NCBI RefSeq assembly: GCF_030388665.1
Contig: NZ_CP128846.1
Location: 2,046,001 to 2,110,000 of the forward strand
Reading direction: 5' to 3'
Source of the DNA: Streptomyces flavofungini
GTDB lineage: Bacteria; Actinomycetota; Actinomycetes; Streptomycetales; Streptomycetaceae
Length of the DNA stretch: 64,000 bases
Positions 35,727 through 57,466 of this stretch are shown piece by piece. The translations under genes and the position numbers were made by a program. The notes beneath the pieces were generated by a model, which did not search any database, had not been told where the DNA came from, and saw only the letters and a program-made list of their open reading frames with translations. Each line of letters opens with the position of its first letter. The first letter of the stretch is position 1.

Positions 35727-36203
35727 ATGCCCGACGCCCTGCCCCTGCGCGCGGAGGTGCTGCTCGACCAGGACGCCCCGGAAGCCCTCGCCCAGGACCT
35801 GGTCGCGGCGCTCGACGACCTCGGCGTCCGCACGGCCCGCGTCCGCCGGGCCGTCGCCCACCGCGGCGTGGGCGACCTCGCCTGGCTCGCCCTCGCCTCC
35901 CTGCCGCTCCAGGCCTTCCTCAGCGGCCTGGGCGCGGAGGCGGTGCGGGACGCGTACGCGTCGCTCAAGGGCCTGGTACGGCGCGGGGCGGACCCAGGGG
36001 CGGCGGGGGCCGACGGGGCGCCGCGCCCCTTGGTGCTCCAGGACGACCGGAGCGGCCTGAGCGTCGTCCTGGAACCGGATCTGCCCGCCGAGGCGTATGA
36101 GCAGTTGCTGGGCCTCGACTTGACGACGTTCCAGGTGGGGCCGCTGCACTACGATCGCCAACTCGGCCGCTGGCGCTCGGAGTTGGACGAGGCCGCAGGC
36201 TGA
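35727..36203 (+). CDS. small protein opening the CHAT/Hsp70 operon, EACC1-like
   Basis: A 158-residue protein of unknown function. Predicted order: an alpha/beta N-terminus, an amphipathic or weakly hydrophobic helix pair (LAWLALASLPLQAFLSGLG, AYASLKGLVRR), a Gly/Ala linker, then a strand hairpin (PLVLQDDRSGLSVVLEPDLP). This layout recalls the small effector-associated constant component (EACC1) proteins encoded beside effectors in actinobacterial conflict systems, but that is topology only. It lies 31 bp before the TPR gene, so it is probably the first gene of the operon. The spacing suggests stoichiometric partnership with the larger proteins. Confidence 0.55.
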   Translation: MPDALPLRAEVLLDQDAPEALAQDLVAALDDLGVRTARVRRAVAHRGVGDLAWLALASLPLQAFLSGLGAEAVRDAYASLKGLVRRGADPGAAGADGAPRPLVLQDDRSGLSVVLEPDLPAEAYEQLLGLDLTTFQVGPLHYDRQLGRWRSELDEAAG

Positions 36204-36234
36204 CGGACCATCACTGGCTGCTGAACGGGGGCTT

Positions 36235-38427
36235 GTGGGAGTGGAGCCACGGACGGAGCCGACGCTCGCCGACGCGGAACGGGACGGCGCGGAACGGGAT
36301 CGCTCGCAGGAGGCCTGCGCGGAGGAGGCCCACGCGGAGGAAGTCCGCGTGGAGGAGCCCCACGCGGAGGCGCGGCCCCATGTCCGGCTGGGACGCGTAC
36401 GCCTGGCCGCCGGGGATCTCGACGGCGCCCGCACCGAGTTCCAGCTCGCCCACGAGGCCGCGCCCGACGACGCCACTCCCCTGTTCTGGCTCGGCTGCGC
36501 CCTGGCCCACGAAGGGCGAATCGACTCCGCCGAGGCCCACTTCACCCGTTCCCTCGCGTGCGCCGCGCCGCACCCGCGCGCCCTCGTCCAGCGCGCCTAC
36601 ACACGCCTCGCGGCGGGGAACGGGGAGGGGGCGCTGGCCGATCTCCGCGCGGCGGAGCGGAGCGGAGTGCTGGACGACGAGGGCAGGTGGGCGGCGGCGG
36701 TGCTGTCGGGGGTGCGGGGCGCCGTCGGCTCGGGGCGACGGAACGCGTCCGGCCCGGGGACACACAGCACCCCCGGATCAGAGGCACCCAGCCCCTCCGG
36801 CCCAGGGGCGGCACCGAGCGCCCCCGAATCCGCGCCCACCGCGTCCCGCGTCGCCGCGCTGCTCCGCAGAGCCGGGCTCGCCGCGCTCGACGGCGCCGAC
36901 CCGGACTGGCCGCGCGCCGCCGCCCTGTTCGGCGCGGCGTGGGACATCGAGCCGTACACCGGGCGCTTCGCGGTGCTGTACGGCGTCGCCCTTGCCGTGG
37001 GCGGGCGACGGGACGCCGCCGTCGACGTCCTCGCCACCGCCGCCCGGCGCGACCCCTGCGACCACCGCGTCACCCACGCCCTGGCGATCGCCCTCCTCAA
37101 CTCCCCGACACAGGAACCCTCCGCCGACGTCCCGCACACGACGGACTCCCCCACGACGCCCGCAGCCCCGGCACCCCCGACACCCACCCCGCCCTGCGAG
37201 CGCGCCATCGCCGCCTGGGGTGCGCTCCTCTACGACAGCTCCTTCTGGGACCGCGTGCGGCTCGCGGCCGGGCGGCGGTACGGCGCGGAGGTGGGCGCCG
37301 ACCTCGTGCCCGGCCTGCGGAGCGGGCTGCGTGACCGTGTGGCGCGGCGCCTGCCCGACGAGGGCGTCAGCGGCAGCCGCGTAGCCCCGGACGTGCTCCT
37401 CCAGCGCGAGGCCGACGCCGCGCGGATCCTCGACGAGGCCGGCGGGTTCCCCGGGCCCTGGGACACCCCCCTGCGCTGCGGGCCGCTGGCGATCGCCGCG
37501 CTCGGCCGGGTCCGGGAGTTCGGCGTCTTCACCGCCACGGGCAGCGGCGCCGCCCCCGAGACGGGCGTCGCGCACCCCGCCCTCGTCCACCCCTTCTCCG
37601 AACTCGGCTTCGCCCAGATCCAGTTGACCGCCGGGCTGCCCGGCGACGCCCTCGCCGCCCTCACCGAGCTGCGCTGCCGCGACTGCCGCGCGCGGGCGCG
37701 TGCGGCGGGCCCGGCCGCGGCGCCCGTCTGCGAAGCGGACTGCGCCCGCTTCGACGGGCTCAACCCCGGGTACGCCGGGCTCCCCGACCGCCACCGGCGG
37801 CTCGCCAAGGACGCCCGGGAGCTGGCCCTGCACGCCCGCGTCACCCTCGGCAGGGACCACCTCACCGCCGACCGCCCCGACTTCGGCGCCGCCGCCGCGT
37901 GCTGGCGCCGCGCCCTCGTCCACAGCAGACGGCTGGAGCGCTACCGGCACACGCAGGCAGCCGTCGTCGGCCTCGCGCTCGCCGCTGCCAAGGACGCCTA
38001 CCGCGCCGGGCACCTGACCCGCGCCGCGAGCACCCTGGAGACCGCGCGCTCCGTCATCGGCGCCAACGAACGACCCCATCTGGACGGCCAGTTGGCCCGC
38101 GTACTCGCCGACCGCGGCATCCGCGAGGCCAACCGCGAGGACGCCGACCTGGAGGCGTCCGCGACGGACCTGCGGCGCTCCGTGGCGATCGGCCCGCGGC
38201 TGCGGCGCGCGCAGCTCAGCCTCGGTATCGTGCTGCGCGGCCTGGCGCTGCGCCGCTGGGGCTCGGGCAGCCTGTCCGGCGCGCGCACCGCCCTGGAGGA
38301 GGCCGTCGGGCAACTGACCGCCGCGCTCACGCACTTCCCCGACGACCCGGAGATCACCGAGGAGCGGGACCGGGCCCGGAGCGAACTCGACTTCGTACGC
38401 GAACAGTTCGACGAGAGCTGGAGGTGA
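36235..38427 (+). CDS. TPR protein paralogous to the C-terminus of the CHAT protein
   Basis: A 730-residue cytosolic protein. An acidic N-terminus with repeated AEE/VEE units (residues 25-45) precedes three or four TPRs (about residues 48-165), a disordered Pro/Ser/Ala region, and from about residue 326 a module shared with the C-terminus of the next protein. Shared landmarks are WGALLYDSSFWD versus WATLLSDDVYWD, ILDEAGGFPG versus ILKDVGGLPG, and YAGLPDRHRRL versus YARLPHRHARL. It has no CHAT domain. I infer a scaffold or regulatory subunit that arose by duplication and pairs with the protease. GTG 36235 has a weak site; GTG 36241 is an alternative. Confidence 0.72.
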   Translation: MGVEPRTEPTLADAERDGAERDRSQEACAEEAHAEEVRVEEPHAEARPHVRLGRVRLAAGDLDGARTEFQLAHEAAPDDATPLFWLGCALAHEGRIDSAEAHFTRSLACAAPHPRALVQRAYTRLAAGNGEGALADLRAAERSGVLDDEGRWAAAVLSGVRGAVGSGRRNASGPGTHSTPGSEAPSPSGPGAAPSAPESAPTASRVAALLRRAGLAALDGADPDWPRAAALFGAAWDIEPYTGRFAVLYGVALAVGGRRDAAVDVLATAARRDPCDHRVTHALAIALLNSPTQEPSADVPHTTDSPTTPAAPAPPTPTPPCERAIAAWGALLYDSSFWDRVRLAAGRRYGAEVGADLVPGLRSGLRDRVARRLPDEGVSGSRVAPDVLLQREADAARILDEAGGFPGPWDTPLRCGPLAIAALGRVREFGVFTATGSGAAPETGVAHPALVHPFSELGFAQIQLTAGLPGDALAALTELRCRDCRARARAAGPAAAPVCEADCARFDGLNPGYAGLPDRHRRLAKDARELALHARVTLGRDHLTADRPDFGAAAACWRRALVHSRRLERYRHTQAAVVGLALAAAKDAYRAGHLTRAASTLETARSVIGANERPHLDGQLARVLADRGIREANREDADLEASATDLRRSVAIGPRLRRAQLSLGIVLRGLALRRWGSGSLSGARTALEEAVGQLTAALTHFPDDPEITEERDRARSELDFVREQFDESWR

Positions 38428-38436
38428 GCGGCGGCG

Positions 38437-41400
38437 ATGCTCCAGTACGAGGAACTGCGCATCCGGGTCCGCCCCGTCGGCCCGTCCCACTGCCTCGTGG
38501 CCGTCAGCGGTCCCGCGTGCGCGCTCGGCGTGATCGCCGTGGACGGCGCGCCGGCGGCGTTCCGGGCCCGCTGGGACCGGCTCGTCGCCGCCGACCTCGG
38601 CCTCGCACCCATGGGCGAGCGGCACACGGCCGAGCAGCTGCGCGACCTCGGCCGTGACGTGTACCGGTTGCTGTTCGGCGGCGACGGCGGCGAGGGGGCC
38701 GGGGGCTGCCTGGCCGCCGCCCTCGAACTCGCCCAGCGCCTGCGCCCCCCGCGCGGCCTGCGGCTCCGCTTCGACCTGCCGCCGCACCTGCGGGAACTGC
38801 CGCTCGAAGCCCTGTGCGCGCCCGCCGGGATGCCGCAGCAGTCCCTCGCCCTAGGCCCCGGCCACTCCCTGGCCCGCTCACTGCCCGGCGGGCCCCTCGG
38901 CCGCCGCCTGCCCGACCCGGCGGACGAGCCCAGCCTGATCCGTCTCGTCGTCGCCTGCGCCTCCCCGGCCGGGTCGGGCCCCGCCCTCCGCGTGGACTCC
39001 GAAGTGGCCGCGCTGCGCCAGGAGTTGCCGGAGGTGGCGGTCCGCACCACGGTCGTCGAGCGGGCCACCCGCGAGCGCCTGGAGTCGGCGCTCGGGGCGC
39101 ACGGCGACCTGCCGACGGCCGTGCTCCTCATCGCCCACGGAACGTACGACGAGGACCTCGGCAAGGGCGTCGTCCAGCTGGAGACGGAGCACGGCGGCGC
39201 GGACCCGGTGCCCGCCGATCTGCTCAGCGGCATCCTCCTCAAAGCCCCGAGGCTGCGGCTCGCCGTCCTCAACCTGTGCTCCGGCGCTGACAGTTCGGGC
39301 CCCGACGGAGTGCACACCGAGCCGTTCTCGGGGCTCGCGCAGGCGCTCGTCGGCGGCGGCGTGCCCGCTGTCGTCGCCATGCGCGGCCGGGTCAGCGACG
39401 TGTCGGCGGGACGCTTCAGCCCCGAGCTCCTGAAGGGGCTCGCGGCGAACCGGACCGTCGACGAGTCGATGGCCGCCGCGCGCCGCCGCATCTCGCACCT
39501 GCCGCGGCACACGGCCGTCGAGTGGGCGACGCCCGCGCTGTTCCTGCACGCCGGATACCGGCACGGCTGGCTCTTCAAGGCGCGGGAGGTGCGCGACGAC
39601 GACGGCGCGGCGCCCGACCCGCTGCGCGAGGGCGCCGACGCCCTGCGCGCCTTCCAGCGGCCCGTGGGGCACGTCGGCGCGGCGACGCTCATCGACGCGG
39701 CGCGGTTCGAGCGCGACCGCGGCGAGTGGGCGCAGGTCCTGCGGATCCTGCGGACACCGACGCGGCAGTACGAGGACGAGCAGCGGCAACTGCGGGACGA
39801 GGCGGCGTTCGAGCTGGCCTGGCCCGAGCTGGAAGCGCTCTGCGGGGTGCTCGCCGCCGGGCGGGACGGGGCGGACGCGGCGCGGCGCCTCGCCGCGGTC
39901 CGCGCCGCCCTGCCGTGCCCGCTGCCCGCCGGGCTCCTCGACCGCGCGGACCGGCTGCGCCACGCCGCCGAGCTGGCCGACCGGGCCCGCGCCGCGGAGG
40001 CCGCCGCGGACTGGCCCACCGCCATCGCCCTCTACGAACAGGTCCTCGCCACCACCCCCGACTCCCCCGCCCCCCGCGCCCGCCTCACCGAGGCCCGCAC
40101 CCGGCTCCGCCTCGCCACGGCCCTGGCGACGGCCGCCCACGCCCACCACGCCACCGCCTGGCCCGAGGCCGCCCACGCCTACGAGGAGGCCCTGGCCCTG
40201 CTCCCCGACGACCCCGCCCTCACCGCGCGCGCGGCGTACGCGCGGGGCCGCGTCGCGGAGGGCGCCGGGGACTGGCGGGGGGCGATGGAGGCGTTCGGGG
40301 CCTGTACGGGGGCCGGCGGGGGCACCTTGGGCGAGGGGGGCAGCGAGAGGGCCGGGGGTGGTGTCGCGGTCGGGGGCGGCGTGGCCTGCGGGGAGAGGGC
40401 GGGTGTCCGGTACGGCATGTCCGCTGAAGTCGGTGCGGCGACCGGGACGGCGGACGCCGGGTGCGGCCCGGCCGCTGAAATCTCTGCTCCGGCCGGGAAC
40501 GGCTCGGCGCCCGCCGAAGCGGGCGCGCTCACCGACACCGCCGCCCCACCCGCCGAAGCAGTCGCAGTCACCGGGACCGGTCCGATCACCGCCGACCGCG
40601 CGCAGCCCCGGAACAACACGACCGCCCCGGCACCGGCTCCACCGACAGGTCCGACCGCCGCACCCGCGCCCCACGGCGATCCCGGCACCGGCCCCGCCCC
40701 CGCGAGCCCGCCCCGCGCCGCCCCCGCGGGCACGCCGGAGCACCCGGACATCTCCGACGCCCCCGCCCGGTACGCCTACGCGCGCGGGCGAGCCGCGGCC
40801 GACGCGGGTGACTGGGCGACGGCGGCCGCCGCCTTCAGCACGTGCCGCGAGGCGGAGGCCGGTGCCGGGGCGACGGGGCACACCGACGTCACCCTCCGCT
40901 GGACCTACGCCCGGGGCCGCCGCTGCCAGGAGCTGGGGGACTGGGGCGGCGCCGTGTCCCACCTCGCCGCTCTCCCGGCCGAGTTCGTCGACGTACAGAC
41001 CCATCTGCGGTTCTCCCGGGGCATGTTCGCCGACTCCCGGGGCGAGTGGGAGGGCGTCATCGACGGGTTCGGCGGGCTGCCCGACGAGTACGCGGACGGC
41101 GAGGTGAAGGTGCGCCGCCTCTACGCCCGGGCCCGCGCCGCCGCCGACGGGCGCGGGGACTGGGCCGCCGCCTCCGGGCTCCTGGCCGACCTGCCCGACT
41201 CGGCGCGCGACGGCACCGTCGCACCGCTGCGCCGCAAGGTGGAGGGCCGCCGCGCGGAGGCCGGGGGCGACTGGGCGGCGGCCCGCGCGATCTACGCCCG
41301 CGCGTTCACCGGCGGCGGGCCCGGCGGCACTCTGCCGGCGCCGCGCACCCCGTTGCCGCCGCACGTCCCCGAGCCCGCGAGCAGCGCCGCCGCGAACTCC

Positions 41401-44241
41401 CCGGCCACCGCCGCCCCCGCCCCGAACTCCCCGGCCCTCGCCCTCACCCCCACCGCCCGGGAGTCCCTCCACCTGTACCTCTACGCGCTCTCCCGCACCC
41501 ACGAGCTGTCGTGCCGGTGGGCCGACGCCCTGCACGTGTACCTCGTGCTGCCCGACGCGTGGGCGGACGTGGCGGCGCGGCGGCGGTACGCGCGGGCCCG
41601 GGTGGCCGAGGAGGAGGTCGAGGCGTCGGGCGAGGGGCCGGGGACGGCCGCGCGGTGGCGGATGGTGGCGGCCGCGTACGACCTGCTCGGCGAGGCGAGC
41701 GGCGCGGGCAGCTGCGCGGGCGGCCGCGCCGACTCGTGCGCCGCCGGTCACGCGGGCGACACCGCCGGTGCGGGCGAGGGGCGCGACCACGCCGCACGCG
41801 CGGAGTACGCCCGCGTCCGTGCCGCCGAGGCCGACGGCGAGTGGGCCGCCGTCGTCGGGGCGGCCGAGGCGCTGGGCGCCTACCGGGACGCGCCCGCCGT
41901 CGCCGCGTACGCCCGGGGGCGGCTCGCGGACGCGCACCAGGAGTGGCGGCGGGCCGCCGAGGCCTTCGAGGAGTGCCGGGGGCACGGGGACGCGGACGCC
42001 CACCTGGCGTACGCGCGGGGCCGCTCCCTGGAGGCGGAGGGCCGGTGGAGCGAGGCCGTCGAGGAGTACGGGCGGGCGGCGGACCGGCTCGACCGGGCCG
42101 ATGTGCGCCGGCGCAGGCTGCGGCGCCTCATCGACCTGCTGCCGTGGGCCGACGGCGCGACCCGGGGCCCACTGGCCGCGGACCCGTTCGCGCTGCGCGA
42201 CGAGACGTACCCCTACCGGGCGCTGCGCGCGGTGGGCGTGCACCCGGGTGTGTCGATGGCCGCGGTGAGCGACGCCTCCTACACGCTCCTGGAGCGCGGC
42301 GGCATGACGTGGTCGGAGCGGGTCGCGTGGGACCGGCTGCGGCTGCCGGGCAGACGGCTGCAGGTGGACGCGCTGCTGTACCGGTGGCAGCAGCCGGACG
42401 GTCTGCGGGCCGCGCTGGCCACGCTGTCGCCGGACGACGAGCACGCCGGGCCCGGCTTCGTGGACGTGCTGTGCGAGCGCTTCCCCGGCGACGCCCCGCT
42501 CCTGCTGCTCCTCGCGCGGGGGCGCGACGCGGCCACCGCCGAGTGGGAGCGGCGGCTCGCGGCCGCGCCGGGCGACATGGCGACGGCGCACGGTCTGGCC
42601 GTGGCCCGGCTGTGGCAGGCGCAGGAGCTGGAGCAGAGCGGGGCGTGGGAACACGCCGTGCGGACCTGGGAGTTGGCGCTCTCCTACTGGGCCACGCTCC
42701 TGAGCGACGACGTGTACTGGGACGGGTGGCGGGCCGAGCGGGCCGACTGCTACGAGCGCAAGCTGACCCACGAGGACATGACGCGGCTGCGCTGGGAGCT
42801 GAGCCGCCATCTGTTCGGCCTGCTCTCGGCGTACGAGCAGCGGCACACCGAGCAGGACCGGCCGGAACAGGCCGCGTGGTACGAGGAGTTGGCGGAGTTC
42901 CTGGAGGCGGAGCTGGCGGGCGCGCGGATCCTCAAGGACGTCGGCGGGCTGCCCGGCGTACCGGGGGCGCGCGCCGCCCTCGCCTGCGGGCCGCGCTATC
43001 TGCGCCTGCTCGACCTGCAACTGCCCCTCGCCGAGCTCGCCGCGGACCTGGACGCCGCCGCGAAGGACGGCAAGGACCCGGGCGAGTACGCGGTGCGCGA
43101 GCTGCGCTGGGCGTTCTCTGGCCTCTCCCGGGCCCTCACGCTGTGCGCGGTGCACAAGTTCGAGCCCGCCCTGCGCGCCCTGCCCGCGTTCCCGACGCTG
43201 ACGACGCTCCCCGACGACTGCGCGGGCCCCGCCGCCGCGCCCGACCCGCGCCGCCACCTCGATGGGTGCGCGTACTGCCAGGAGTTCCTGCGCCGGGACC
43301 CGGCGTACGCCCGACTGCCGCACCGGCACGCCCGGTTGCTGCAGGACGGGGTCGAACTGGCCGTGCGGGTGCGCCTGGAGCTGTCGCGCACGGCGCTCGC
43401 CGACGGCGAGTGCGGGCTCGGCCGGGCCCAGGAGCAGTGGGAGCGCCTGGTGCGGGTGGCGCGCCGCGCGGGGATGACGGCGCGGGCCAAGAAGGCGCTG
43501 GTGCGGACCGTGCTCGGGCGGGTCGAGGCCCTCCTCGACGAGGACCCGGCGCGCCGTGGTGACGTCCTGGACGAGGCGATCACGCTCGTCGAGGCGGTGC
43601 CGCCGGTGCTGCACCCGCTGGAGCGCGAGGTCCGCGACCAGCTCGACGGGCGGCTCTCGTCGCTGTACTCGATGCGGGGCGTGTGGCGCGGCTACACCCG
43701 CACCAAGCACGGCATGCGCTCCGACGTGTACGGCGCGGAGGCCGACCTGCGCCGCGCCCTCGCCCTGAACCCGGCGTCCAACCACGCGCGCGACAACCTG
43801 GCCCGCGCCCTCGTCTTCACCCTGGACGCCCGCACCGACGAACTCCCGGCCCGGCTATGCCTGTTGCACGAGGCCCTCGGCCTGCTCGACGTGGGCCTCG
43901 GCCAGGCCCTCACCCACAACTACCGCGAGACCCTGGGCGAGAGCCTGGAGGAGCTCGACCGGCTCCTCGCCACGGACCTGGGGGTCGTGGGCGTGGGCGA
44001 GCTGATGCGCAGCGACGGCGCGGAGCCGCCCCCGGACGAGGACGACCTGGCGTCCTGGGCCGCCGCCCTGACCGACCGCGCGGAGGCCGAACTCGCCCGC
44101 GGTGACGTCCGCAGGGCCCTGCACCACCTGATCCGCGCCACCCGCGCCGACGTCATGGACGGCAGGGTCCGGCGGGCCCTGCTCGACGCGGTGAACCGCT
44201 GGCTGACCGCGCTGACCACCGAAGGAGGCGGCCCCTCGTGA
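38437..44241 (+). CDS. giant CHAT-domain protease with TPR-like repeats
   Basis: A 1,934-residue protein. Residues about 1-390 are a CHAT (caspase-like) peptidase, with the catalytic pair His234 (LIAHGTYDED) and Cys281 (LNLCSGAD). Next come TPR-like repeats marked by YARGR and GDW (YAYARGRAAADAGDWATAAA), broken by Pro/Ala linkers at about 630-765 and 957-1007. A J-domain-like segment lies at about 1260-1316, and the C-terminus from about 1417 is paralogous to the preceding protein. ggaggtg lies 10 nt before ATG. CHAT proteases are effectors in caspase-like and Craspase systems; here TPR repeats probably sense or hold it inactive. Substrate unknown. Confidence 0.87.
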   Translation: MLQYEELRIRVRPVGPSHCLVAVSGPACALGVIAVDGAPAAFRARWDRLVAADLGLAPMGERHTAEQLRDLGRDVYRLLFGGDGGEGAGGCLAAALELAQRLRPPRGLRLRFDLPPHLRELPLEALCAPAGMPQQSLALGPGHSLARSLPGGPLGRRLPDPADEPSLIRLVVACASPAGSGPALRVDSEVAALRQELPEVAVRTTVVERATRERLESALGAHGDLPTAVLLIAHGTYDEDLGKGVVQLETEHGGADPVPADLLSGILLKAPRLRLAVLNLCSGADSSGPDGVHTEPFSGLAQALVGGGVPAVVAMRGRVSDVSAGRFSPELLKGLAANRTVDESMAAARRRISHLPRHTAVEWATPALFLHAGYRHGWLFKAREVRDDDGAAPDPLREGADALRAFQRPVGHVGAATLIDAARFERDRGEWAQVLRILRTPTRQYEDEQRQLRDEAAFELAWPELEALCGVLAAGRDGADAARRLAAVRAALPCPLPAGLLDRADRLRHAAELADRARAAEAAADWPTAIALYEQVLATTPDSPAPRARLTEARTRLRLATALATAAHAHHATAWPEAAHAYEEALALLPDDPALTARAAYARGRVAEGAGDWRGAMEAFGACTGAGGGTLGEGGSERAGGGVAVGGGVACGERAGVRYGMSAEVGAATGTADAGCGPAAEISAPAGNGSAPAEAGALTDTAAPPAEAVAVTGTGPITADRAQPRNNTTAPAPAPPTGPTAAPAPHGDPGTGPAPASPPRAAPAGTPEHPDISDAPARYAYARGRAAADAGDWATAAAAFSTCREAEAGAGATGHTDVTLRWTYARGRRCQELGDWGGAVSHLAALPAEFVDVQTHLRFSRGMFADSRGEWEGVIDGFGGLPDEYADGEVKVRRLYARARAAADGRGDWAAASGLLADLPDSARDGTVAPLRRKVEGRRAEAGGDWAAARAIYARAFTGGGPGGTLPAPRTPLPPHVPEPASSAAANSPATAAPAPNSPALALTPTARESLHLYLYALSRTHELSCRWADALHVYLVLPDAWADVAARRRYARARVAEEEVEASGEGPGTAARWRMVAAAYDLLGEASGAGSCAGGRADSCAAGHAGDTAGAGEGRDHAARAEYARVRAAEADGEWAAVVGAAEALGAYRDAPAVAAYARGRLADAHQEWRRAAEAFEECRGHGDADAHLAYARGRSLEAEGRWSEAVEEYGRAADRLDRADVRRRRLRRLIDLLPWADGATRGPLAADPFALRDETYPYRALRAVGVHPGVSMAAVSDASYTLLERGGMTWSERVAWDRLRLPGRRLQVDALLYRWQQPDGLRAALATLSPDDEHAGPGFVDVLCERFPGDAPLLLLLARGRDAATAEWERRLAAAPGDMATAHGLAVARLWQAQELEQSGAWEHAVRTWELALSYWATLLSDDVYWDGWRAERADCYERKLTHEDMTRLRWELSRHLFGLLSAYEQRHTEQDRPEQAAWYEELAEFLEAELAGARILKDVGGLPGVPGARAALACGPRYLRLLDLQLPLAELAADLDAAAKDGKDPGEYAVRELRWAFSGLSRALTLCAVHKFEPALRALPAFPTLTTLPDDCAGPAAAPDPRRHLDGCAYCQEFLRRDPAYARLPHRHARLLQDGVELAVRVRLELSRTALADGECGLGRAQEQWERLVRVARRAGMTARAKKALVRTVLGRVEALLDEDPARRGDVLDEAITLVEAVPPVLHPLEREVRDQLDGRLSSLYSMRGVWRGYTRTKHGMRSDVYGAEADLRRALALNPASNHARDNLARALVFTLDARTDELPARLCLLHEALGLLDVGLGQALTHNYRETLGESLEELDRLLATDLGVVGVGELMRSDGAEPPPDEDDLASWAAALTDRAEAELARGDVRRALHHLIRATRADVMDGRVRRALLDAVNRWLTALTTEGGGPS

Positions 44242-44594
44242 TCAGGGACCCCGACAGCGGCCCCGGCCCCTACGAAGCGCTCGCCGAGGCCGGCGTGACG
44301 CCGTGGACCTCGCACGCGGACCTGCGGGACGTGCCGTTCGACCTGCTCGCCCGGCGCCTGATGACGCCGTTCACGCAGGCGGCCTGGGACGAGCTGCGCA
44401 CCGTACCGGGACGGCTGCTCGTCGATCTGTTCCGCTACGACATGGACCTCGCCGCCGAACTCCCGGGCGCCGTCGCGGAGATGGACCGGCAGCTCGACGA
44501 GCCGGGCCCTCGGGGCGGGCCCGGTGCCGGGAATCCGCTGTCCGAGGAGGCGGCCGCCCGTCTCCTCGCCGACCTCGTCCGCTTCGACGTCTGA
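44238..44594 (+). CDS. degenerate J-domain-like protein
   Basis: A 118-residue protein overlapping the CHAT gene by 4 bp (GTGA). Residues about 11-68 (PYEALAEAGVTP, DLRDVPFDLLARRLM, AAWDELRTVPGRLLVDLFRY) follow the order of a DnaJ J-domain: YxxL-G-V-xP, helix II, helix III, then the AW-x-L-x-x-x-x-R-x-x-x-D-x-x-x-Y ending. The HPD tripeptide needed to stimulate Hsp70 ATPase is absent. The same segment occurs inside the CHAT protein. With GrpE- and Hsp70-like genes directly after it, a co-chaperone role is a reasonable inference. An unrelated helical protein is the alternative. Confidence 0.5.
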   Translation: MIRDPDSGPGPYEALAEAGVTPWTSHADLRDVPFDLLARRLMTPFTQAAWDELRTVPGRLLVDLFRYDMDLAAELPGAVAEMDRQLDEPGPRGGPGAGNPLSEEAAARLLADLVRFDV

Positions 44595-44631
44595 CCGCCC
44601 GAGATCCGACTGCCCGAAAGGAGGCGCGCAC

Positions 44632-45204
44632 ATGAACCCGATGGACCCGCCGGACCCCCCGCCGGATCACGACGCCCCGTACGGAGCCGCCGCCCTGGCC
44701 GCGTACGAGGGTTCCAGGGCGCTGGCCGCCCGGGACGCCGCGCACCGGGCGCACACCGAGCGGCTGCTCCTGGTGTGCGCCGACACGCTGGACGCCTGCG
44801 GGCGGCTGCTCGCCGAAGGGCCGGGCGGCGCGGACCCGGCCGCGTACCACCGCAGTCTCCGACTCGTCGTGCGGCAGCTGGAGTCGGCGGTCCGCGACGA
44901 GGGCCTGGAGGTGTTCGGGCGCGCCGGGGAGCGCGCGGAGCCTGCCACGCACCACGTCGTGGAGGTGCGCGCCGCTCCACCGGGGGCCGTGGACGACGAG
45001 GTCCTTGAGGTCGTGCGGCGCGGGTATCGATACCGGGGTCAGGTGCTGCGCGCCGCCCGGGTCGTGGTCGCGGCGGCCGGGGCCGGGCCCGACAGCACCA
45101 CGGACGAGGACAGCGGCACCGACGGCGACTGCGGTACCGGCAGTGACAGCGGAACCGGCGGCGGGACAGGCAGGGCACCACAGGAAGGGACCACGCACGG
45201 ATGA
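44632..45204 (+). CDS. GrpE-like nucleotide exchange factor
   Basis: A 190-residue protein with an N-terminal helical stretch (about residues 20-85) and a compact segment, VDDEVLEVVRRGYRYRGQ followed by VLRAARVVVA, that matches the beta-domain signature of GrpE. GrpE releases ADP from Hsp70. The long coiled helix of canonical GrpE is shorter here. The C-terminus is a Gly/Ser/Asp/Thr repeat tail with Cys. aaggagg lies about 8 nt before ATG 44632. The stop overlaps the Hsp70 start by 4 bp (ATGA), so the factor is probably dedicated to that Hsp70. Confidence 0.68.
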   Translation: MNPMDPPDPPPDHDAPYGAAALAAYEGSRALAARDAAHRAHTERLLLVCADTLDACGRLLAEGPGGADPAAYHRSLRLVVRQLESAVRDEGLEVFGRAGERAEPATHHVVEVRAAPPGAVDDEVLEVVRRGYRYRGQVLRAARVVVAAAGAGPDSTTDEDSGTDGDCGTGSDSGTGGGTGRAPQEGTTHG

Positions 45205-47342
45205 AGGCCATCGGGATCGACCTCGGCACGACGAACAGCGCCGTCGCCGCCCACGACCCGCACCGCGGGGACATCGCGGTGCTCACCAACAGCAAGGGCG
45301 ACCGCCTCACGCCGTCCGTCGTCGGCCTGGTGCGGCGCGACGGCAAGGAGCAGACGATCGTCGGCGAGGACGCCCTGAACTGGGCGGTGCGCCAGCCCAG
45401 GGACACCATCGTGTCGGTGAAGCGCCTGATGGGCCGGGACTTCGCGGACACCTCGGTGGCCGAGGCCCGCGACCGGCTCAGCTACGAGATCGTGCCGGGG
45501 CCCGACGACGACCCGCGGGCCCATGTGACGCTCGGGGGCCGCACCCGGACGCCCGCCGAGATCTCCAGCGTCATCCTCGACAAGCTGGTGCGGGACGCGG
45601 CGCGCACCCTCGGCGAGCAGGTCACGCACGCGGTGATCACGGTGCCCGCGTACTTCAGGGACGCGCAGCGCGCGGCGACCCGGGAGGCCGCGGAGCGCGC
45701 GGGCCTGGTGGTGAAGAAGATCGTCGACGAGCCGACGGCCGCCGCCGTCGCCTTCGGCCTGCACAAGCCGGACGGGGCCCGCAGCCGGGTCCTGGTGTAC
45801 GACCTGGGCGGCGGCACCTTCGACATCTCCGTCCTGAACACGGTCAAGGACCGGGACGGCAACAGCCAGTTCCAGGTGCTGCGCTCCGCCGGGGACATCT
45901 GGCTGGGCGGCGACGACTTCGACCTGGTGATCGTGGAGCGGATCATCGCCTGGATGCGCGCGGAGCGGGGCGTCGACCCGGCGGGCGACAAGGAGTTCCT
46001 GTTCCAGGCGAAGAAGGCGGCGGAGGCGGCCAAGCGGGAGCTGAACGAGCTGCCGGAGACGTACATCGTGATCCCGGCCGCGTACCGCGGGCCCGAGGGC
46101 ATCGTGGACGTCGAGATGGCGCTCACCCGCGACGAGTTCCAGGCGATGATCGCGCCCCTGGTGACCCGCACCATGGACCTCGTCAAGGAGACCCTGTCGG
46201 GCTTCGAGCTGGCGCCCGACGACATCTCCGACGTGCTGCTCGTCGGCGGTGGCACCCTGACCCGCCCGGTGTACGAGGCGGTGGAGGCGTTCTTCGGCGC
46301 CGACAAGGTGCGCCGCAACATCAACCCGATGGAGTGCGTGGCCTACGGCGCGGGCGTGCTCGCCCAGACCCTGGACGGCGTGGAGTGCCCCGCCCAGAAG
46401 TGCGCCCGCACCAACGAGTACGCGGCCGAGACGTGTGTGGACTGCGGGCAGAGCCTGGTCAACGGGCGGCCGGTGGGCTCCACGGGCCTGTTCGAGTCGA
46501 CGCCCATGGCGATGGGGATCGCCGCCGTGAAGGGCTCCCAGCGGGACGTGTTCGTCCAGATCATCCCGGCGGGCTCCCCCTATCCGCTGCCCGAGCCGCG
46601 CCAGCGCACGTTCCACGCGACGGACAGCAGGCTGATCCGAGTGCCGGTGTACGAGGGCGACAGTCATGTGGCGAGCGAGAACCACGAACAGGGCGTGGTG
46701 GAGTTCGAGCTGCCGCAGGAGATCGAGATCAACTGCCATGTGGACGTGTCGTTCAACTACTCGGCGGACCGCATCATCACCGTGCGGATCGCCGTGCGCG
46801 GCACCGACATGGTCCTGGAGGCGACACCCCGGCGCGAGATGCCCCGCACCCCGCCGCCCGAGACCGAGCGGGAGGTGGACAGCGCGATCCTGCGCGAGGA
46901 GCTGGGGCTCGCCGTGCGGGAGGCCCAGCGCTTCCTCAAGCAGTACGGCACCTACATCGAGCAGACGCAGGAGATGAAGGCGCGCCGCGACATCGCGCAG
47001 GCGCAGCGGGCGGTGGAGATGGGCGACAGCCGCGAGTACAAACGTCTCACCGAGCTGCTGCTCGACGACATGTACCACCAGTGCGGGCTGGCCAGCCAGT
47101 TCCGGCAGGCCGAACTCGCCTCGGACGGCGCCCCGTTGGAGACGGTCAACGCGATCAGTGAGGCCGTCGAGCAGGTGAAGGCGGCCCACCGCCAGGGCAA
47201 CAGCATCCAGACCGCCGAGCAGGCCAAGAACCTGCGCAGCATGATCGCCGTCGCCTACTCGGAGCGCGCGGTGCCGACCCTGCCCAGCAAGAAGGACTAC
47301 GGGGGCATCCTCCAGGTCCCCGACGACATGGCCGGCGGATGA
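45201..47342 (+). CDS. Hsp70 chaperone with Cys4 knuckle in the interdomain linker
   Basis: A 713-residue DnaK-type chaperone. The ATPase domain is intact: GIDLGTTNSAVA (phosphate 1), VYDLGGGTFDIS (phosphate 2), LLVGGGTLTRPVYEAV (adenosine). Where DnaK has its short linker there is a four-cysteine insert: C396, C401, C412, C415 (CPAQKC, then CVDCG), a likely zinc knuckle. A beta substrate domain follows (FESTPMAMGIAAVKGSQRDV) and a helical C-terminus of about 200 residues. It is distinct from the housekeeping DnaK, which lacks such cysteines. Coupled by ATGA overlaps to the GrpE-like gene before and the second Hsp70-like gene after. Confidence 0.88.
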   Translation: MKAIGIDLGTTNSAVAAHDPHRGDIAVLTNSKGDRLTPSVVGLVRRDGKEQTIVGEDALNWAVRQPRDTIVSVKRLMGRDFADTSVAEARDRLSYEIVPGPDDDPRAHVTLGGRTRTPAEISSVILDKLVRDAARTLGEQVTHAVITVPAYFRDAQRAATREAAERAGLVVKKIVDEPTAAAVAFGLHKPDGARSRVLVYDLGGGTFDISVLNTVKDRDGNSQFQVLRSAGDIWLGGDDFDLVIVERIIAWMRAERGVDPAGDKEFLFQAKKAAEAAKRELNELPETYIVIPAAYRGPEGIVDVEMALTRDEFQAMIAPLVTRTMDLVKETLSGFELAPDDISDVLLVGGGTLTRPVYEAVEAFFGADKVRRNINPMECVAYGAGVLAQTLDGVECPAQKCARTNEYAAETCVDCGQSLVNGRPVGSTGLFESTPMAMGIAAVKGSQRDVFVQIIPAGSPYPLPEPRQRTFHATDSRLIRVPVYEGDSHVASENHEQGVVEFELPQEIEINCHVDVSFNYSADRIITVRIAVRGTDMVLEATPRREMPRTPPPETEREVDSAILREELGLAVREAQRFLKQYGTYIEQTQEMKARRDIAQAQRAVEMGDSREYKRLTELLLDDMYHQCGLASQFRQAELASDGAPLETVNAISEAVEQVKAAHRQGNSIQTAEQAKNLRSMIAVAYSERAVPTLPSKKDYGGILQVPDDMAGG

Positions 47343-49426
47343 CGGCAGCAAGGGCCGGTGCGGGCCGCGTCAGCCTCGGCGTGGACTTCGGCGCCACCGG
47401 GGTGCGGGCGCTGTTCGCGGGGCCGGGACAGCAGGTGCGCCGCCTCGACCTGCCCGCGGCGGAGCCGTCGTGGCTGCGGTGCGCCCCGGCCGCGGCGGGC
47501 GTCCTTCCGGTGACGTTCCCCAGCCTGAAGTCCCTGGTGGGCAGCGGGGGTCCGGTGCCGTGGCGAGGGGAGGCGGCCGACGTGGACACGGTCGTGGTGC
47601 GGCTGCTCCGGGGGCTGCGCGAGCGCGTCGAGGAGCAGGCGGACGCCTTCGTCGCGCAGACCGTCGTCAGTGTGCCCGCGTCCTTCCAGTCGGCGCAGCG
47701 CCAGGCCCTGCGGGACGCGGCGGACGCGGCCGGGCTCACGCCCGTGCGGCTGATCAGCGACTCGATGGCGGCGGTCATGGGGCACACCACGGACCGCGAC
47801 AGCGGCACGTTCCTCGTGTACGGCATGGGGTACGAGGGCTTCGAGATCGGCCTGGTACGGGGCGTGCGCGGGCACTGCCGCGCCCTCGGCTACGCCGGTG
47901 CGGCCACCTCGGGGGGCCGCGCCTTCGACGAGGCCGCCCTGGAGTCCGCGGTACGGCTCCTTCTGGCGCACCGCGGACCGGCTTCGGTGACGGGCGCCCC
48001 GGCAGAGGTGTGGCTCGGCCTGCGCGAGCGGGCCGAGCGGGCCCGCAAGGCGCTGACGGGACCGGCCGCCGAGGACGGGGCCGCGGTAACGGACTTCGCG
48101 GCACTCACCCTCGACCTGGGCACCGGGCCCGCCCTGCGCATGGGCATCACCCGGCCGAACCTGGACGCGTTCCTGGAGCCGCACGTGCGCCGCACCGTGC
48201 GGCGCGCCCACGCCCTGCTCGACGAGTCCGCGGTGCCGCGCGCGGATGTGGACACCCTGCTCCTGGTCGGCGGCGGCACGCTGATGGAGCAGGTGCGTTC
48301 GGGTGTCGCGGGCCTCGGCCGCGGCACCGCCCACGGCCCGCCGGAGCTGCTCGCCCTCGGCGCGCTCAAGCACGCGGTGCGGCTCGCGGGCGGCGGCGCC
48401 CCCTCTTCCCGCTCGACGGCCCTGGAGGAGGGCCTCCTCGAACCCGCCGACCCGGCCCGCGACACCCTCGCCGACGCCCCCGCCCTCACCGCGAGCCTCT
48501 TCCCCCTCGACGCCCCGCCCGACCCCCTCACCGACGCCTCCGCCGCGCCGCGCCAGGACGTCGCCCACGCAAGGGACCTCGTCCGGCAGGGGCGCAGGCA
48601 GGAGGCGGTGGCGCTGCTGCGGGACATCGTGACGGAGGCGCGGGAGCTGCTGGCGGGGCTCGAGGCGGGGCGGGGGACGGGGGTGGCGGGGGACGGGGTT
48701 GCGGGCACGGGTGCCGGTGCACATGCCGGTGCCGGGGACAGTGCCAGTGCCAGTGCCAGGACAGGGGACAGGCGTGCGGAGGGCTCGGGCCCGCCGGAAC
48801 AGCGGACACAGGAGAGGCAACAGACCCAGGAGAGGCGACAGACCCAGGAGGCGCGACAGCCGCAGGAGGAGCAGCAGGAACAGCCGTCACGACAGGAACA
48901 ACAGTCTCCGCGGGGGCAGCAGCCACCGAAGGAACAGTCGTTGCAGCAGAACGCCGAAGCCCGGGTCGTGCGACAGCGCCCCGGCCGCGGCAGCGAACGC
49001 CAACTCGCCCGCGCCAGGCTCCTGCTGGAGCACGGCCGCTACGAGCACGCCGTGCAGGTGTCCCACCAGGCCTGGCAGGAGGCCACCGCGCTCACGGACC
49101 GCGCCGACGTCCTGGACGCGATGATCGACGTGCACTGCGCGGCGGCGATGGCCGACATGGCGCCGGACCACTTCGCGGACGCCGAGCGGTGGCTGCGGTG
49201 CGCGTACGGGCACGACCCGACGAACGAGCGGGTGCGCGGGCTGCTCGCGCGGCGCACCTTCCGGCACGCGGAGGAACTCCACCGGATCGGTGCGCGGGAT
49301 GAGGCGATTGAGGCCCTTGGCAAGTGCCTCATGTGGGACCGTGAACACCCCGGAGCCGAGGCGCTTTCGCGCCTGCTCGGCCGCGACGGCAGGAACCGGC
49401 GCGGCCGGGGGGACGTCCTCGACTGA
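47339..49426 (+). CDS. degenerate Hsp70-like protein fused to TPRs
   Basis: A 695-residue protein. Residues about 10-360 have the Hsp70/actin fold, but key motifs are altered: GVDFGATGVRAL for phosphate 1 and VYGMGYEGFEIGLV where VYDLGGGTFDISV is expected, so the Asp of phosphate 2 is lost; LLLVGGGTLMEQV remains. ATP hydrolysis is doubtful though binding may persist. No substrate-binding domain is present. A Gln/Glu/Arg-rich linker (about residues 480-540) leads to a TPR-like C-terminus (LARARLLLEHGRYEHAVQ, EEAHRIGARD-like helices). I infer a regulatory partner of the upstream Hsp70, in the manner of Hsp110-type pairs. Confidence 0.75.
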   Translation: MTAARAGAGRVSLGVDFGATGVRALFAGPGQQVRRLDLPAAEPSWLRCAPAAAGVLPVTFPSLKSLVGSGGPVPWRGEAADVDTVVVRLLRGLRERVEEQADAFVAQTVVSVPASFQSAQRQALRDAADAAGLTPVRLISDSMAAVMGHTTDRDSGTFLVYGMGYEGFEIGLVRGVRGHCRALGYAGAATSGGRAFDEAALESAVRLLLAHRGPASVTGAPAEVWLGLRERAERARKALTGPAAEDGAAVTDFAALTLDLGTGPALRMGITRPNLDAFLEPHVRRTVRRAHALLDESAVPRADVDTLLLVGGGTLMEQVRSGVAGLGRGTAHGPPELLALGALKHAVRLAGGGAPSSRSTALEEGLLEPADPARDTLADAPALTASLFPLDAPPDPLTDASAAPRQDVAHARDLVRQGRRQEAVALLRDIVTEARELLAGLEAGRGTGVAGDGVAGTGAGAHAGAGDSASASARTGDRRAEGSGPPEQRTQERQQTQERRQTQEARQPQEEQQEQPSRQEQQSPRGQQPPKEQSLQQNAEARVVRQRPGRGSERQLARARLLLEHGRYEHAVQVSHQAWQEATALTDRADVLDAMIDVHCAAAMADMAPDHFADAERWLRCAYGHDPTNERVRGLLARRTFRHAEELHRIGARDEAIEALGKCLMWDREHPGAEALSRLLGRDGRNRRGRGDVLD

Positions 49427-49518
49427 CGAAGACCGACGAGGCATCCCGGGCGCGGCGCCACGGCGCCCGCGCCACCGGCCCGGGGCCCCCAGGCCGCTCC
49501 GAGACAGGGAGTACGCGT

Positions 49519-51245
<1,727 letters not shown>

Positions 51246-51249
<4 letters not shown>

Positions 51250-51755
51250 GCCCGTACCGGCGGCGCGGGCGGGGCCGGGGCGCGGGCGGCCGGGTCGCGG
51301 GCGTCGTCCTCGCGGGCTGGCTCTTCGCCGACCTGCTGCTCGTACTCGCCCTGGTGTCGATGGCCGACAGGCCCGACCCGCTCGCCGCGCGTCCGAAGCC
51401 GTCGAACAGCGCGGACGGGACGAAGCCGCCGAAGCCGAAGCCGAGCCCCACGGGCCCGCGGTCGGTGGAGCGCAAGCCCGAGCAGTTCGAGGTGAAGGGC
51501 ACGGACAAGGACGCGCTCGTGGCGCAGATCGGCCGGTCCACGAAGAAGTGGCAGGGCCGGACGGCCGCGCTGGTGCTGACCTTCGGCGGCGGGCAGAGCG
51601 GCACGACGTACGCCCACCGCGTCAACTCGCTGCTCGGCGAGGGCCGTCCGGAGATGTTCACGCGGAAGACGGCGACGGACGACTTCCACGACCTGAGCAA
51701 CAGCCCGTCGACCGCCGTGGTCCGGGTGTACTTCTTCACGGCGCCGGGAGGCTGA
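51246..51755 (+). CDS. single-TM protein with a membrane aspartate, MotB/ZorB-like
   Basis: A 169-residue protein overlapping the preceding gene by 4 bp (GTGA). A short Arg-rich cytosolic start is followed by one TM helix (VLAGWLFADLLLVLALVSMA) with Asp29 in its first third, in the same FADLL context as the proton-carrying Asp of MotB, TolR and ZorB. A Lys/Pro linker leads to an outside domain of about 85 residues (TAALVLTFGGGQSG, YAHRVNSLLGEG) that may be a reduced OmpA-like domain without its peptidoglycan-binding Asp/Arg. The pairing with a coiled-coil membrane protein supports a stator-like complex; this is inference. Confidence 0.58.
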
Positions 51756-51758
51756 CCG

Positions 51759-54029
51759 GTGGCGACGAACTGGCGGCCCGGCGTCCGGGGCACCGACGGC
51801 ACGCCCCCGCCGCTGCCCGTGCTCCCGCAGTTCCCCGGCATGCGCGGATACCGCCAACTGCGCTCCGGCCTTCGCGACTTGGGGTTCCGGCACGCCGCCG
51901 AGCTGCTGCGGGAGCCGGGGCGGCAGCAGGCGGCGGGCGGTGTCTTCAACACCCTGCCGACGGCGCAGACGGACGACGGCTTCCGTGTCCTCGACGGCCT
52001 GTGGTTCCCCGGCCGCGGCGGGCTGTGGCAGCGCGTGGACGTGCCGTTCGTGCGGCGGGCACGGGAGGCCTGGCAGATGTCGGCGGACCCGCGCGCGCTG
52101 ACGGCGGCCGCGGTCACGGACGTCCTGGAGACCCTGGCGCGCGACCACCCGATGGGGCTTCGGCGCATCGTCCTGTGGGAGCTGTGCTGCCTGCTGAAGG
52201 ACGGCGGCGGTAACGGCAAGGGCGGCAGGCCGGGCACGCGCGGAGGCGACGCGGCCACGGCGGGGGCCGGTGCCGGCTCGGCCACGGCGACGACCGCCGA
52301 CGACGTCGCCGCGCTCGGCGTGCACCGCAGTGAGGCCCGCCTCCTGGCCGCCGCCGTCGACGCCGCCTTCCCCGCCGACGGGGCGGCCCGGCGCGCGGCG
52401 GAGGAGATCAACGACGTCTGGCCGGGCACCCGCCTCCGCCGGGCCGAGCACCTCGCGGACCTGCTGCCCGCGGCACCGGACGACCACGTACTCGCCGCGC
52501 TGCTCGGCGCGGTGCGGACCCGCTCCACGAAGGTGCGGCTCCTCGCGTACGCGGCCCGCAGGGCGCACGACAGCGGTGACGCGCGGGCGGCGGCCACCAC
52601 GTGGCTCGGCGCGCTGCGGCAGGCCACGGACGCGCCGGAGCTGCGGGCGGGCCTGCTGCGGACGGCCACCGCCCTCGCCGACGCGCCGTCCGCCCCCGAG
52701 GAGTCCGCGGTCCGGGCGTGGCCGCAGGACCGCGGCATCGGCCTGAGCTGGCGGGCGCCGCACGTACCCGGCACGCGCCCCGCCGACCCCGTGACGTACG
52801 CCGTCCTGCGCTTCGACGACGACGCCCCGGAGACCACCAGCGAGGTCGCGCGGGTCGAGGTGGCCGCACCGGAAGCCCGGCTGCTGACGGCCCACGACAC
52901 GGCCGCGCCGCTGGGCCGCGCCCTGCGCTACGCCGTCCTCCCGCTGCGCGGCGACCGCGTCGCCGGGGTGCCGCGCGTCTCCGCGCCGGTCCTCGTCGCG
53001 CCGGACGTCACGCAGCTTATGACCAAGCCCGTGCCGGGAGGCGTCCAGGTGCACTGGCGGCCGCACCCGGCGGCCGTCGACATCGAGGTGCTGCGCTACG
53101 ACCTGCCGGACGTCGGCGCGGGCAGCGGGCCGACGGTGCTGTCCTGCGGGCGCCGGGGACTGGTGGACGACGCGCTGCCCCCGGGGATCTACACGTACCG
53201 GGTGAGCTGCGGCTATCCAGGCCCTGGCGGCACCGTCGCCCGGTCGCCCGGGGTGCACGTCATGGCCCGCGTCGAGGCGTGGCCGACCCCCGTGCGGGAG
53301 CTGACCGCCGAGCTCGCCGGGGACCGCGTGCGGCTCGCGTGGCGCGCGCCCCGGCGCGGTCGAAGCACCCTCGTGCCCTGGCCGGACGGCCCGATCGCGC
53401 CGGGCACGGACATCTCGGAACGCTTCGCCCGCATGTCCGCACCGAGCACACCCGGCGGCGCGACACCCGCCCACGCCACGTCCGCCCACGCCGGGAGCGC
53501 GTCGGACCTGCCGGATCCCTGGGCGGCGGAGCCGCGCACGGGTGGTGGCGACGGACGGGACCTGCTGCTCGAAGTGGACCCGCCCGTGGCGGGGCGGCTG
53601 CGGATGACGGCGGTGAGCGTGCTCGGCGACCGTGCGGTGGCCGGTCCGAGTGTCGTCATCGAGAGTCCGGCCCCGATCAAGGACTTGACGGTGGTGCGGC
53701 TCGGGCGCGGGCGCGCCAACGCGGTGTTCACCTGGCCGGAGCCCGCCGTGCTGGTGCGGGTCGGCTGGCAGGACGGCACGCGCGGCGACTCCCGGCGCGT
53801 GCCGCGCAGCACGCACCAGAAGGCGTCCGGGGCGGTCGAGTTGGCCGTGCCGGAGAGCGCCTGCACCGTCACGGTCACCCCGCTGACCCGCCCGGACGCC
53901 GTCGCCGTGCCCGCGCCGCCCGCGTACGCCGACCTGCCCGCGGCGCACCTGCCGCCGCCCCCGCCGGAGCCCGCGCCGTGGCGGCGGTGGTGGCGCCGCT
54001 GGCTGCGCACCCGCGCCCGCCAGAGCTGA
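51759..54029 (+). CDS. FN3-like repeat protein, last gene of the CHAT/Hsp70 operon
   Basis: A 756-residue protein of unknown function starting 3 bp after the MotB-like gene. The N-terminal 300 residues are mostly helical (MRGYRQLRSGLRDLGFRHAA, FVRRAREAWQMSADPRALTA) with a Gly/Thr/Ala linker near residue 160. From about residue 325 at least three fibronectin type III-like beta domains follow: VTYAVLRFDDDA, GVQVHWRPHPAAVDIEVLRY, DRVRLAWRAPRRG and ANAVFTWPEPAVLVRVGW. The C-terminus is Arg/Trp-rich. There is no P-loop or signal peptide. FN3 proteins are known in GAP1-type conflict operons, which fits the facing gene set. Confidence 0.62.
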   Translation: MATNWRPGVRGTDGTPPPLPVLPQFPGMRGYRQLRSGLRDLGFRHAAELLREPGRQQAAGGVFNTLPTAQTDDGFRVLDGLWFPGRGGLWQRVDVPFVRRAREAWQMSADPRALTAAAVTDVLETLARDHPMGLRRIVLWELCCLLKDGGGNGKGGRPGTRGGDAATAGAGAGSATATTADDVAALGVHRSEARLLAAAVDAAFPADGAARRAAEEINDVWPGTRLRRAEHLADLLPAAPDDHVLAALLGAVRTRSTKVRLLAYAARRAHDSGDARAAATTWLGALRQATDAPELRAGLLRTATALADAPSAPEESAVRAWPQDRGIGLSWRAPHVPGTRPADPVTYAVLRFDDDAPETTSEVARVEVAAPEARLLTAHDTAAPLGRALRYAVLPLRGDRVAGVPRVSAPVLVAPDVTQLMTKPVPGGVQVHWRPHPAAVDIEVLRYDLPDVGAGSGPTVLSCGRRGLVDDALPPGIYTYRVSCGYPGPGGTVARSPGVHVMARVEAWPTPVRELTAELAGDRVRLAWRAPRRGRSTLVPWPDGPIAPGTDISERFARMSAPSTPGGATPAHATSAHAGSASDLPDPWAAEPRTGGGDGRDLLLEVDPPVAGRLRMTAVSVLGDRAVAGPSVVIESPAPIKDLTVVRLGRGRANAVFTWPEPAVLVRVGWQDGTRGDSRRVPRSTHQKASGAVELAVPESACTVTVTPLTRPDAVAVPAPPAYADLPAAHLPPPPPEPAPWRRWWRRWLRTRARQS

Positions 54030-57445: not shown

Positions 57446-57466
57446 GGCCGGTCGGGGCCGTGCGGG

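Follow-up and report, generated by a model that had tools for sequence, protein, structure and literature searches.

A 14-gene cassette of Streptomyces flavofungini, in which genes for a CHAT protease and a set of Hsp70 chaperones stand beside genes for GAP1 and a kinase-phosphatase-vWA triad, is a variant of the GAP1 conflict systems and not a categorically new system. The cassette lies in the window, by which we mean the whole 64,000-nucleotide stretch analysed (contig NZ_CP128846.1, positions 2,046,001 to 2,110,000 of the forward strand). Ten tightly packed rightward genes on the plus strand (35727-54029) are adjoined downstream by four convergent minus-strand genes (54228-60226), and the two sets form one cassette. 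At slightly less than even confidence, we read it as a conflict or stress relative of the actinobacterial GAP1/FNIII/TerY-P systems, in which Hsp70-GrpE and a dead Hsp70 would replace the two DO-GTPases as the switch and would gate the CHAT protease.

An earlier note on this DNA had described the rightward genes as a ten-gene operon with 4-bp overlaps at four junctions. Coordinates, strand and junctions all match, the overlaps being exact and located at CHAT/J-like, GrpE/Hsp70, Hsp70/Hsp70-TPR and hCC/iTM. Its TPR, CHAT, GrpE and two HSP70 assignments agree with the Pfam matches. It had taken the ten genes for the full unit and had missed the adjacent GAP1/kinase/PP2C/vWA half, which gives the family identity; the unit reaches 60226. 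The genes are as follows (aa, amino acids; TM, transmembrane segment).

35727..36203, plus strand: a158, small protein of 158 aa that carries the conserved segment PLQAFLSGLG, first operon gene (in 10 of 11 uncut cassettes)
36235..38427, plus strand: bTPR, TPR protein of 730 aa (Pfam TPR_2, E=2e-9)
38437..44241, plus strand: CHAT protease of 1934 aa, with CHAT at residues 98-366 (N-terminal), a long TPR-like region and an internal J-like module (PF12770, E=2e-22)
44238..44594, plus strand: dJ, J-domain-like protein of 118 aa without the HPD motif
44632..45204, plus strand: GrpE-like nucleotide exchange factor of 190 aa (PF01025, E=3.8e-13)
45201..47342, plus strand: Hsp70 of 713 aa, its ATPase motifs intact, carrying a Cys4 segment (PF00012, E=2e-111)
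47339..49426, plus strand: degenerate Hsp70 nucleotide-binding domain with C-terminal TPR-like repeats, 695 aa (PF00012, E=5e-29)
49519..51249, plus strand: hCC, 576-aa protein with a TTG start, combining two hydrophobic segments with a long coiled coil
51246..51755, plus strand: iTM, one-TM protein with a conserved membrane Asp (GWLFADLLLVLALVSMADRP)
51759..54029, plus strand: jFN3, homologue of the FNIII-position protein of GAP1 systems, 756 aa
54228..55580, minus strand: Ser/Thr kinase of TerY-P type with a C-terminal Cys4 (zinc-ribbon-like) segment (PF00069, E=3e-16)
55577..56545, minus strand: PP2C phosphatase (PF13672, E=3.5e-31)
56542..57273, minus strand: vWA (TerY-like) protein (PF13519, E=0.014, under its cut-off)
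57467..60226, minus strand: GAP1 with middle and C-terminal domains intact and N2 unrecognisable (PF20052, E=8e-89; PF20014, E=1.5e-19)

The products of the first gene and the J-like, one-TM and FN3-like proteins have no Pfam match.

All 14 genes are found in identical order and orientation in 10 of the 11 Streptomyces genomes in which the flanks are uncut, and the eleventh, S. cacaoi, lacks the first gene and has the other 13. Nine more loci are truncated at the end of a contig or locus; their order agrees as far as the sequence reaches, except in S. europaeiscabiei, where GrpE is absent between the J-like and Hsp70 genes (L022 4003-4057). A draft-sequence error is possible at that place, as well as in S. 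cacaoi, in which the CHAT gene (L024 2381-8903) consists of two overlapping frames, and in the one-TM gene of S. huasconensis (L020 8807-9235), which has an apparent frame change. The conserved co-occurrence in order that the earlier note had proposed to look for is seen in other Streptomyces, and the homologues are not scattered. The hidden Markov models (HMMs) of this survey were built from the window and L011-L024, with L038-L045 added for the minus-strand genes and GTPases, and matches in these loci are partly by construction; the models were built without five of the genomes (G693, G606, G660, G689 and G882). Rows dropped from the survey are bTPR in L013, L020 and L022 (the CHAT gene), gHsp in L016 (the Hsp70 gene) and the one-TM row of S. 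huasconensis.

The GAP1-N2 systems are described in the main text of Kaur et al. 2020 as having three non-overlapping themes, namely tubulin, HSP70 with GrpE, and kinase with PP2C and vWA (PMC7159879). A subset of the HSP70 theme has a second HSP70 without a peptide-binding domain, an FNIII-repeat protein is included, and the DO-GTPase-GAP1 pair is among the non-exchanged core components that distinguish these systems (PMC7159879). The cassette shares with them the middle and C-terminal domains of GAP1, the FN3-like component, the complete set of the second theme (HSP70, GrpE and a second HSP70 without a peptide-binding domain) and the triad of the third. Unlike them, it has no DO-GTPase that we could find, its N2 is unrecognisable, and it combines themes 2 and 3 (PMC7159879); it also adds the CHAT-TPR protein, the J-like proteins, the two-segment coiled-coil protein and the stator-B-like protein. 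The view of the earlier note that no described system is of this kind was too strong, as both HSP70/GrpE/FNIII and kinase/PP2C/vWA are published GAP1-N2 themes (PMC7159879). The words CHAT, MotA and Zorya never occur in the main text of that paper, and 'caspase', which names the superfamily that includes CHAT, occurs 28 times; its figures or supplements could list an example. A published account of the CHAT/Hsp70/GAP1 combination was not among the matches listed in the open-licence literature.

GAP1-C was found in 82 of 295 Streptomyces genomes (in the whole-genome searches the best candidates per genome were scored, and absences are lower-bound statements). Thirty GAP1 loci other than the Hsp70 type were hand-picked from the GAP1-C matches and examined. 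Thirteen have the order FNIII - DO-GTPase - GAP1 - TM-GTPase - vWA - PP2C - kinase, and eight have a DO-GTPase and no triad, some with an Hsp70-like gene. In the remaining nine (L098, L100, L103, L105, L106, L110, L116, L120 and L123) GAP1 is solitary, with no DO-GTPase, FN3-like or triad neighbours detected. Comparison of the window with L101 gives identities of 67% for vWA (195 aa), 47% for PP2C, 58% for the kinase and 35% for the FN3-like protein (710 aa, E=8e-81). The 67% identity to the vWA gene of this canonical locus is the reason for the vWA assignment despite a Pfam match under the cut-off. FN3-like HMM matches adjoin the DO-GTPase, on its upstream side, in all 13 kinase-type GAP1 loci. 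The window protein is homologous to the FNIII-position protein of these 13 loci. Pfam fn3, as a test of the FN3-like label given earlier, has no match in the window protein or in its homologues from L101 and L087, and a weak match (E=0.05) in the relative from L043.

The adjacent vWA, PP2C and Ser/Thr kinase genes, the last with a Cys4 segment made of CxxC pairs at 316 and 334, constitute a TerY-P triad. A Cys4 segment of this kind is read as a zinc ribbon. The same three genes and the C-terminal Cys4 of the kinase are found in the TerY-P triad as described in the text of PMC11090510, whereas the triad is tied here to GAP1 and the Hsp70/CHAT operon and not to CoCoNuT or tellurite genes.

GAP1-M and GAP1-C (PF20014 and PF20052) are present in 10 of the 10 Hsp70-type GAP1s scanned, out of 12 (L042 and L092, with an unclear start or incomplete, were left out). 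By contrast, GAP1-N2 (PF20013) is recognisable in none of these 10, versus 13 of 13 GTPase-type GAP1s with a triad and 9 of 9 solitary ones, a comparison that covers the triad-type and solitary GAP1s. The YSG..GNFH motif of N2 is likewise absent in 10/10 Hsp70-type and present in 13/13 GTPase-type proteins. A remnant of N2 in the Hsp70-type GAP1 is detected by profile alignment over 56 columns (probability 96.5). DO-GTPase2 (PF19993) was not found near the cassette in any of seven genomes, nor anywhere in five of them; the other two have it at a separate locus with its own GAP1. It was also not found in six more Hsp70-type genomes (best candidates, at most 101 per genome, scored). The DO-GTPase HMMs built here have no match in 20 cassettes, nine of them cut, and a Walker A pattern ([AG]x4GK[ST]) occurs in none of the 14 cassette proteins. 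Among the genomes with a solitary GAP1, DO-GTPase2 was found in one of nine, about 236 kb from GAP1 (genome-wide, best candidates scored).

In a tree of 41 sequences, from which L098 and L103 (GAP1 rows <450 aa) were excluded, the Hsp70-type GAP1s form one clade (100/100). In a tree of 24, a single branch (100/100) sets the Hsp70-type triads cleanly apart from those of the GTPase type. The genome of the window has a second GAP1 locus (L044, G000:C1:847493-852329), where two DO-GTPases are present and an Hsp70-like gene (HSP70, E=3e-6) lies upstream. This locus is close to the published type, so the cassette variant and the published type coexist in one strain.

The ATPase motifs of Hsp70, which are its catalytic motifs, are intact in 15 of 15 proteins, and the Hsp70-TPR paralogue has lost the DEPTAAA and DLGGGTFD motifs in 14 of 14. 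The Cys4 segment of Hsp70 (window 46386-46445) follows the nucleotide-binding domain and precedes the region found where a substrate-binding domain would be, a position where the interdomain linker is expected; all 14 aligned proteins keep its four Cys. A dedicated chaperone set in the operon, as proposed in the earlier note, is supported. HPD is the functional motif of J domains, and it is absent in 14 of 14 aligned J-like homologues, which have an LMTP.TQ-type loop in its place; a classical J-protein identity of dJ was rejected on this absence. The structural model of dJ weakly resembles J-domain folds, and Pfam DnaJ gives no match.

The window protein and all 14 relatives examined retain the catalytic pair of the CHAT domain, His234/Cys281, which answers the question that had been raised about its conservation. 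CHAT is a member of the caspase superfamily, and a CHAT domain with both His and Cys is a predicted caspase-like protease. The J-like module inside the protein is matched by the HMM with E=1e-12. We also observed a relationship between bTPR (36235-38427) and the C-terminal part of the CHAT gene product (gene at 38437-44241): tblastn with bTPR matches the CHAT gene of relatives (E about 6e-12), suggesting a duplication. PDB sequence searches with the CHAT domain, the J-like profile and the one-TM profile returned nothing usable.

CHAT proteases of defence systems have the same His/Cys pair, and PADLOC models match the window protein (SAVED_CHAT E=2e-8, BovA E=2e-6), but in the cassette CHAT is the N-terminus of a giant TPR protein beside a private Hsp70 set; SAVED has no match in the ten operon proteins. 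The two-gene EACC1-caspase systems (system 4 in the main text of PMC7159879) are similar in having a small first gene followed by genes that include a caspase-superfamily peptidase. They differ in that EACC1 has no match here and the peptidase is the third gene of a far larger unit. As a candidate EACC1, the first gene was rejected: the small protein has no family match, and a genome-wide EACC1 search gave no match there.

The cassette is rare and patchy in Streptomyces. A pattern-based scan for Hsp70 across one genome per species (84,980 species) returned 14 loci, all in Streptomyces, which agree in gene order over the stretch that each one covers. The Hsp70 C-terminal profile matches 8 of 295 Streptomyces genomes, seven of them strongly. 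In five of the seven, GAP1 lies at about 11-15 kb; the other two (G501 and G689) are fragmented with matches on separate contigs, and in G501 the other contig carries the kinase-PP2C-vWA-GAP1 set; G689 has one GAP1 match. In another sample, all seven genomes have GAP1 next to the Hsp70 operon. Among 394 genomes of the class, the same profile gave 13 matches, of which two are strong, both in Streptomyces, and 11 weak (E 2e-9 to 4e-5). Two of the 11 weak matches were examined and rejected as cassettes, one a dnaK-grpE-dnaJ operon (G928) and one an Hsp70/GrpE pair (G970); so was the weak match among the 295 Streptomyces genomes, an Hsp70-GrpE pair with the other cassette genes absent in 20 kb (G539). 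A search of 61 genomes with Hsp70 gave weak matches (E 5e-5 to 6e-4) in nine genomes besides that of the window, and one of the nine, G029, also carries GAP1. The one-TM profile, run over 396 Actinomycetota genomes with the best nine candidates per genome scored, matched the genome of the window alone. Pfam scans at E up to 10 were still under the HMMER filters, and weak matches are incompletely listed.

This patchiness (7 of 295 Streptomyces) bears on a different account of the cassette, that of a protein quality-control or envelope-stress machine in which Hsp70-GrpE would hand damaged membrane or cell-wall clients to CHAT, tuned by the triad and GAP1, for maintenance rather than conflict or death. 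A full-length Hsp70 with intact ATPase motifs, GrpE, J-like proteins and a protease do share one operon, and a membrane protein has a C-terminal domain resembling peptidoglycan-binding domains, as such a machine would suggest. On the other hand, the GAP1, FNIII and triad homologues belong to predicted conflict systems (main text of PMC7159879), and the housekeeping dnaK operon looks different (L147). We consider maintenance an unlikely function, albeit one that deserves some weight.

The membrane pair was called MotA/MotB-like in the earlier note. The part that stands is the resemblance of the one-TM partner to stator B, at moderate scores; the coiled-coil protein has no MotA/ExbB match. The C-terminal domain of iTM resembles SiiA/OmpA peptidoglycan-binding domains, again with moderate scores, its best Foldseek match being the SiiA peptidoglycan-binding domain, with OmpA-like and MotB domains among the aligned chains (absence from the Foldseek/VIA lists was not counted as evidence). 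A MotB-like iTM is therefore tentative, and a MotA-like hCC is unsupported. hCC has two hydrophobic segments, a long coiled coil and a long Pro-Thr repeat, without a MotA/ExbB or SLATT match in Pfam, and its weak PADLOC ZorA matches cover the coiled coil alone. In the ZorAB/MotAB/SiiAB stators as described in the text of PMC11890865, there is likewise a one-TM subunit with a membrane Asp and a peptidoglycan-binding-like domain, with a coiled-coil partner, whereas the partner in the cassette has two hydrophobic segments and no MotA/ExbB match. The cassette is not a Zorya system by gene content, as ZorC, ZorD and ZorE have no match among the ten operon or four minus-strand proteins.

The architecture of hCC, a long cytosolic coiled coil plus two hydrophobic segments, would also be compatible with the membrane proteins being the effector, the coiled-coil protein acting as a SLATT-type pore former released by CHAT cleavage. 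Pore-forming 2TM effectors of the SLATT type have been described for GAP1 systems (main text of PMC7159879). We find this improbable, as no SLATT match was found in Pfam and the one-TM partner with its membrane Asp and SiiA/OmpA-like domain favours a stator-like pair. Most improbable of all is that the CHAT/Hsp70 and GAP1/triad operons are two independent neighbours kept adjacent by shared horizontal transfer: they are convergent, not co-transcribed and separated by a gap of 198 bp, but each of the 11 genomes with uncut flanks has them side by side, the GAP1s of the Hsp70 type make up a single clade, and the FN3-like gene, which stands in the Hsp70 half, has homologues that all 13 kinase-type GTPase loci carry within the GAP1 operon, which implies that the halves share ancestry.

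A scan limited to the convergent gap showed no conspicuous promoter or terminator pattern and no conspicuous unusual fold; short direct repeats of the ctcccgcaa type (window 54150-54235) occupy part of the gap. Rfam and tRNA scans of the window gave no match. We place the outer edge of the cassette at GAP1 because genes beyond it are not conserved in S. cacaoi. The gene adjoining GAP1 in the window is a divergent alpha/beta-hydrolase gene (60207-61178, plus strand), which is found at the matching place in L038, L039, L040 and L042 and not in L041 or L043. At the other end, a multicopper oxidase gene (33375-35336, minus strand) is divergent from the operon.

Returning to the reading of the cassette as a chaperone-switched relative of the GAP1 systems, gene content, order, homologies and the conserved or lost active sites are observed, and it is gating, sensing and cell death that we infer. 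The earlier note, too, had proposed a conflict or stress system, one in which the state of the chaperones would control release of the protease. In its specific form, which we hold to be possible yet doubtful, the Hsp70 cycle, with a dead paralogue and an HPD-less J-like scaffold, would have taken over the role of the paired GTPases, and a peptidoglycan-anchored stator-like sensor would lead to CHAT release, making the cassette a chaperone-gated death switch. The peptidoglycan-anchored iTM and its coiled-coil partner would report disturbance of the envelope, the membrane pair serving as envelope sensor or effector, and the GAP1 and FN3-like proteins would sense the trigger. The kinase/PP2C/vWA triad may set the threshold via phosphorylation. 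Hsp70, reset by GrpE, would keep the CHAT protease folded but silent while being held on TPR/J-like scaffolds (the dead Hsp70-TPR, the TPR protein, the J-like protein and the J-like module of CHAT). A trigger that shifts the Hsp70 cycle would free CHAT, which might then cleave cellular or partner proteins, so that growth stops or the hypha dies.

Several observations weigh against this reading. Without HPD in the J-like proteins, a classical J-stimulated Hsp70 cycle is not assured. A GTPase-free GAP1 is not unique to the Hsp70/CHAT cassette, and the nine solitary GAP1s retain N2 though no DO-GTPase was found nearby. The loss of N2 is thus not a simple consequence of GTPase loss, and the idea that the one simply follows the other is weakened. 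HSP70 is found in GTPase-containing GAP1 loci too, so Hsp70 need not have assumed the GTPase role, and the trees, midpoint-rooted and with long branches, do not show the direction of change. MotA and ExbB have a characteristic number of TM helices, and hCC, with two hydrophobic segments and no family match, was rejected as a MotA. After SiiA, the Foldseek matches of iTM are mostly FtsZ/tubulin-type folds with slightly weaker E-values, and structure matches ranked by Z place CagT first with chorismate mutases close behind. Matches to defence models are modest and mostly concern widely shared domains: the kinase to PD-T4-6 (E=3e-15), CHAT to SAVED_CHAT (E=2e-8), the coiled coil to JetC (E=4e-6) and Hsp70 to PDC-M61B (E=8e-5).

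The cassette retains GAP1, the FN3-like partner of GAP1 and the kinase triad but no DO-GTPases, whose place an Hsp70 module occupies. Should Hsp70 be the switch, a chaperone would make the decision in place of a GTPase in a cell-death-type system, for which the GTPase-type loci of the same genus would serve as a ready natural control, with named loci available in sequenced strains.

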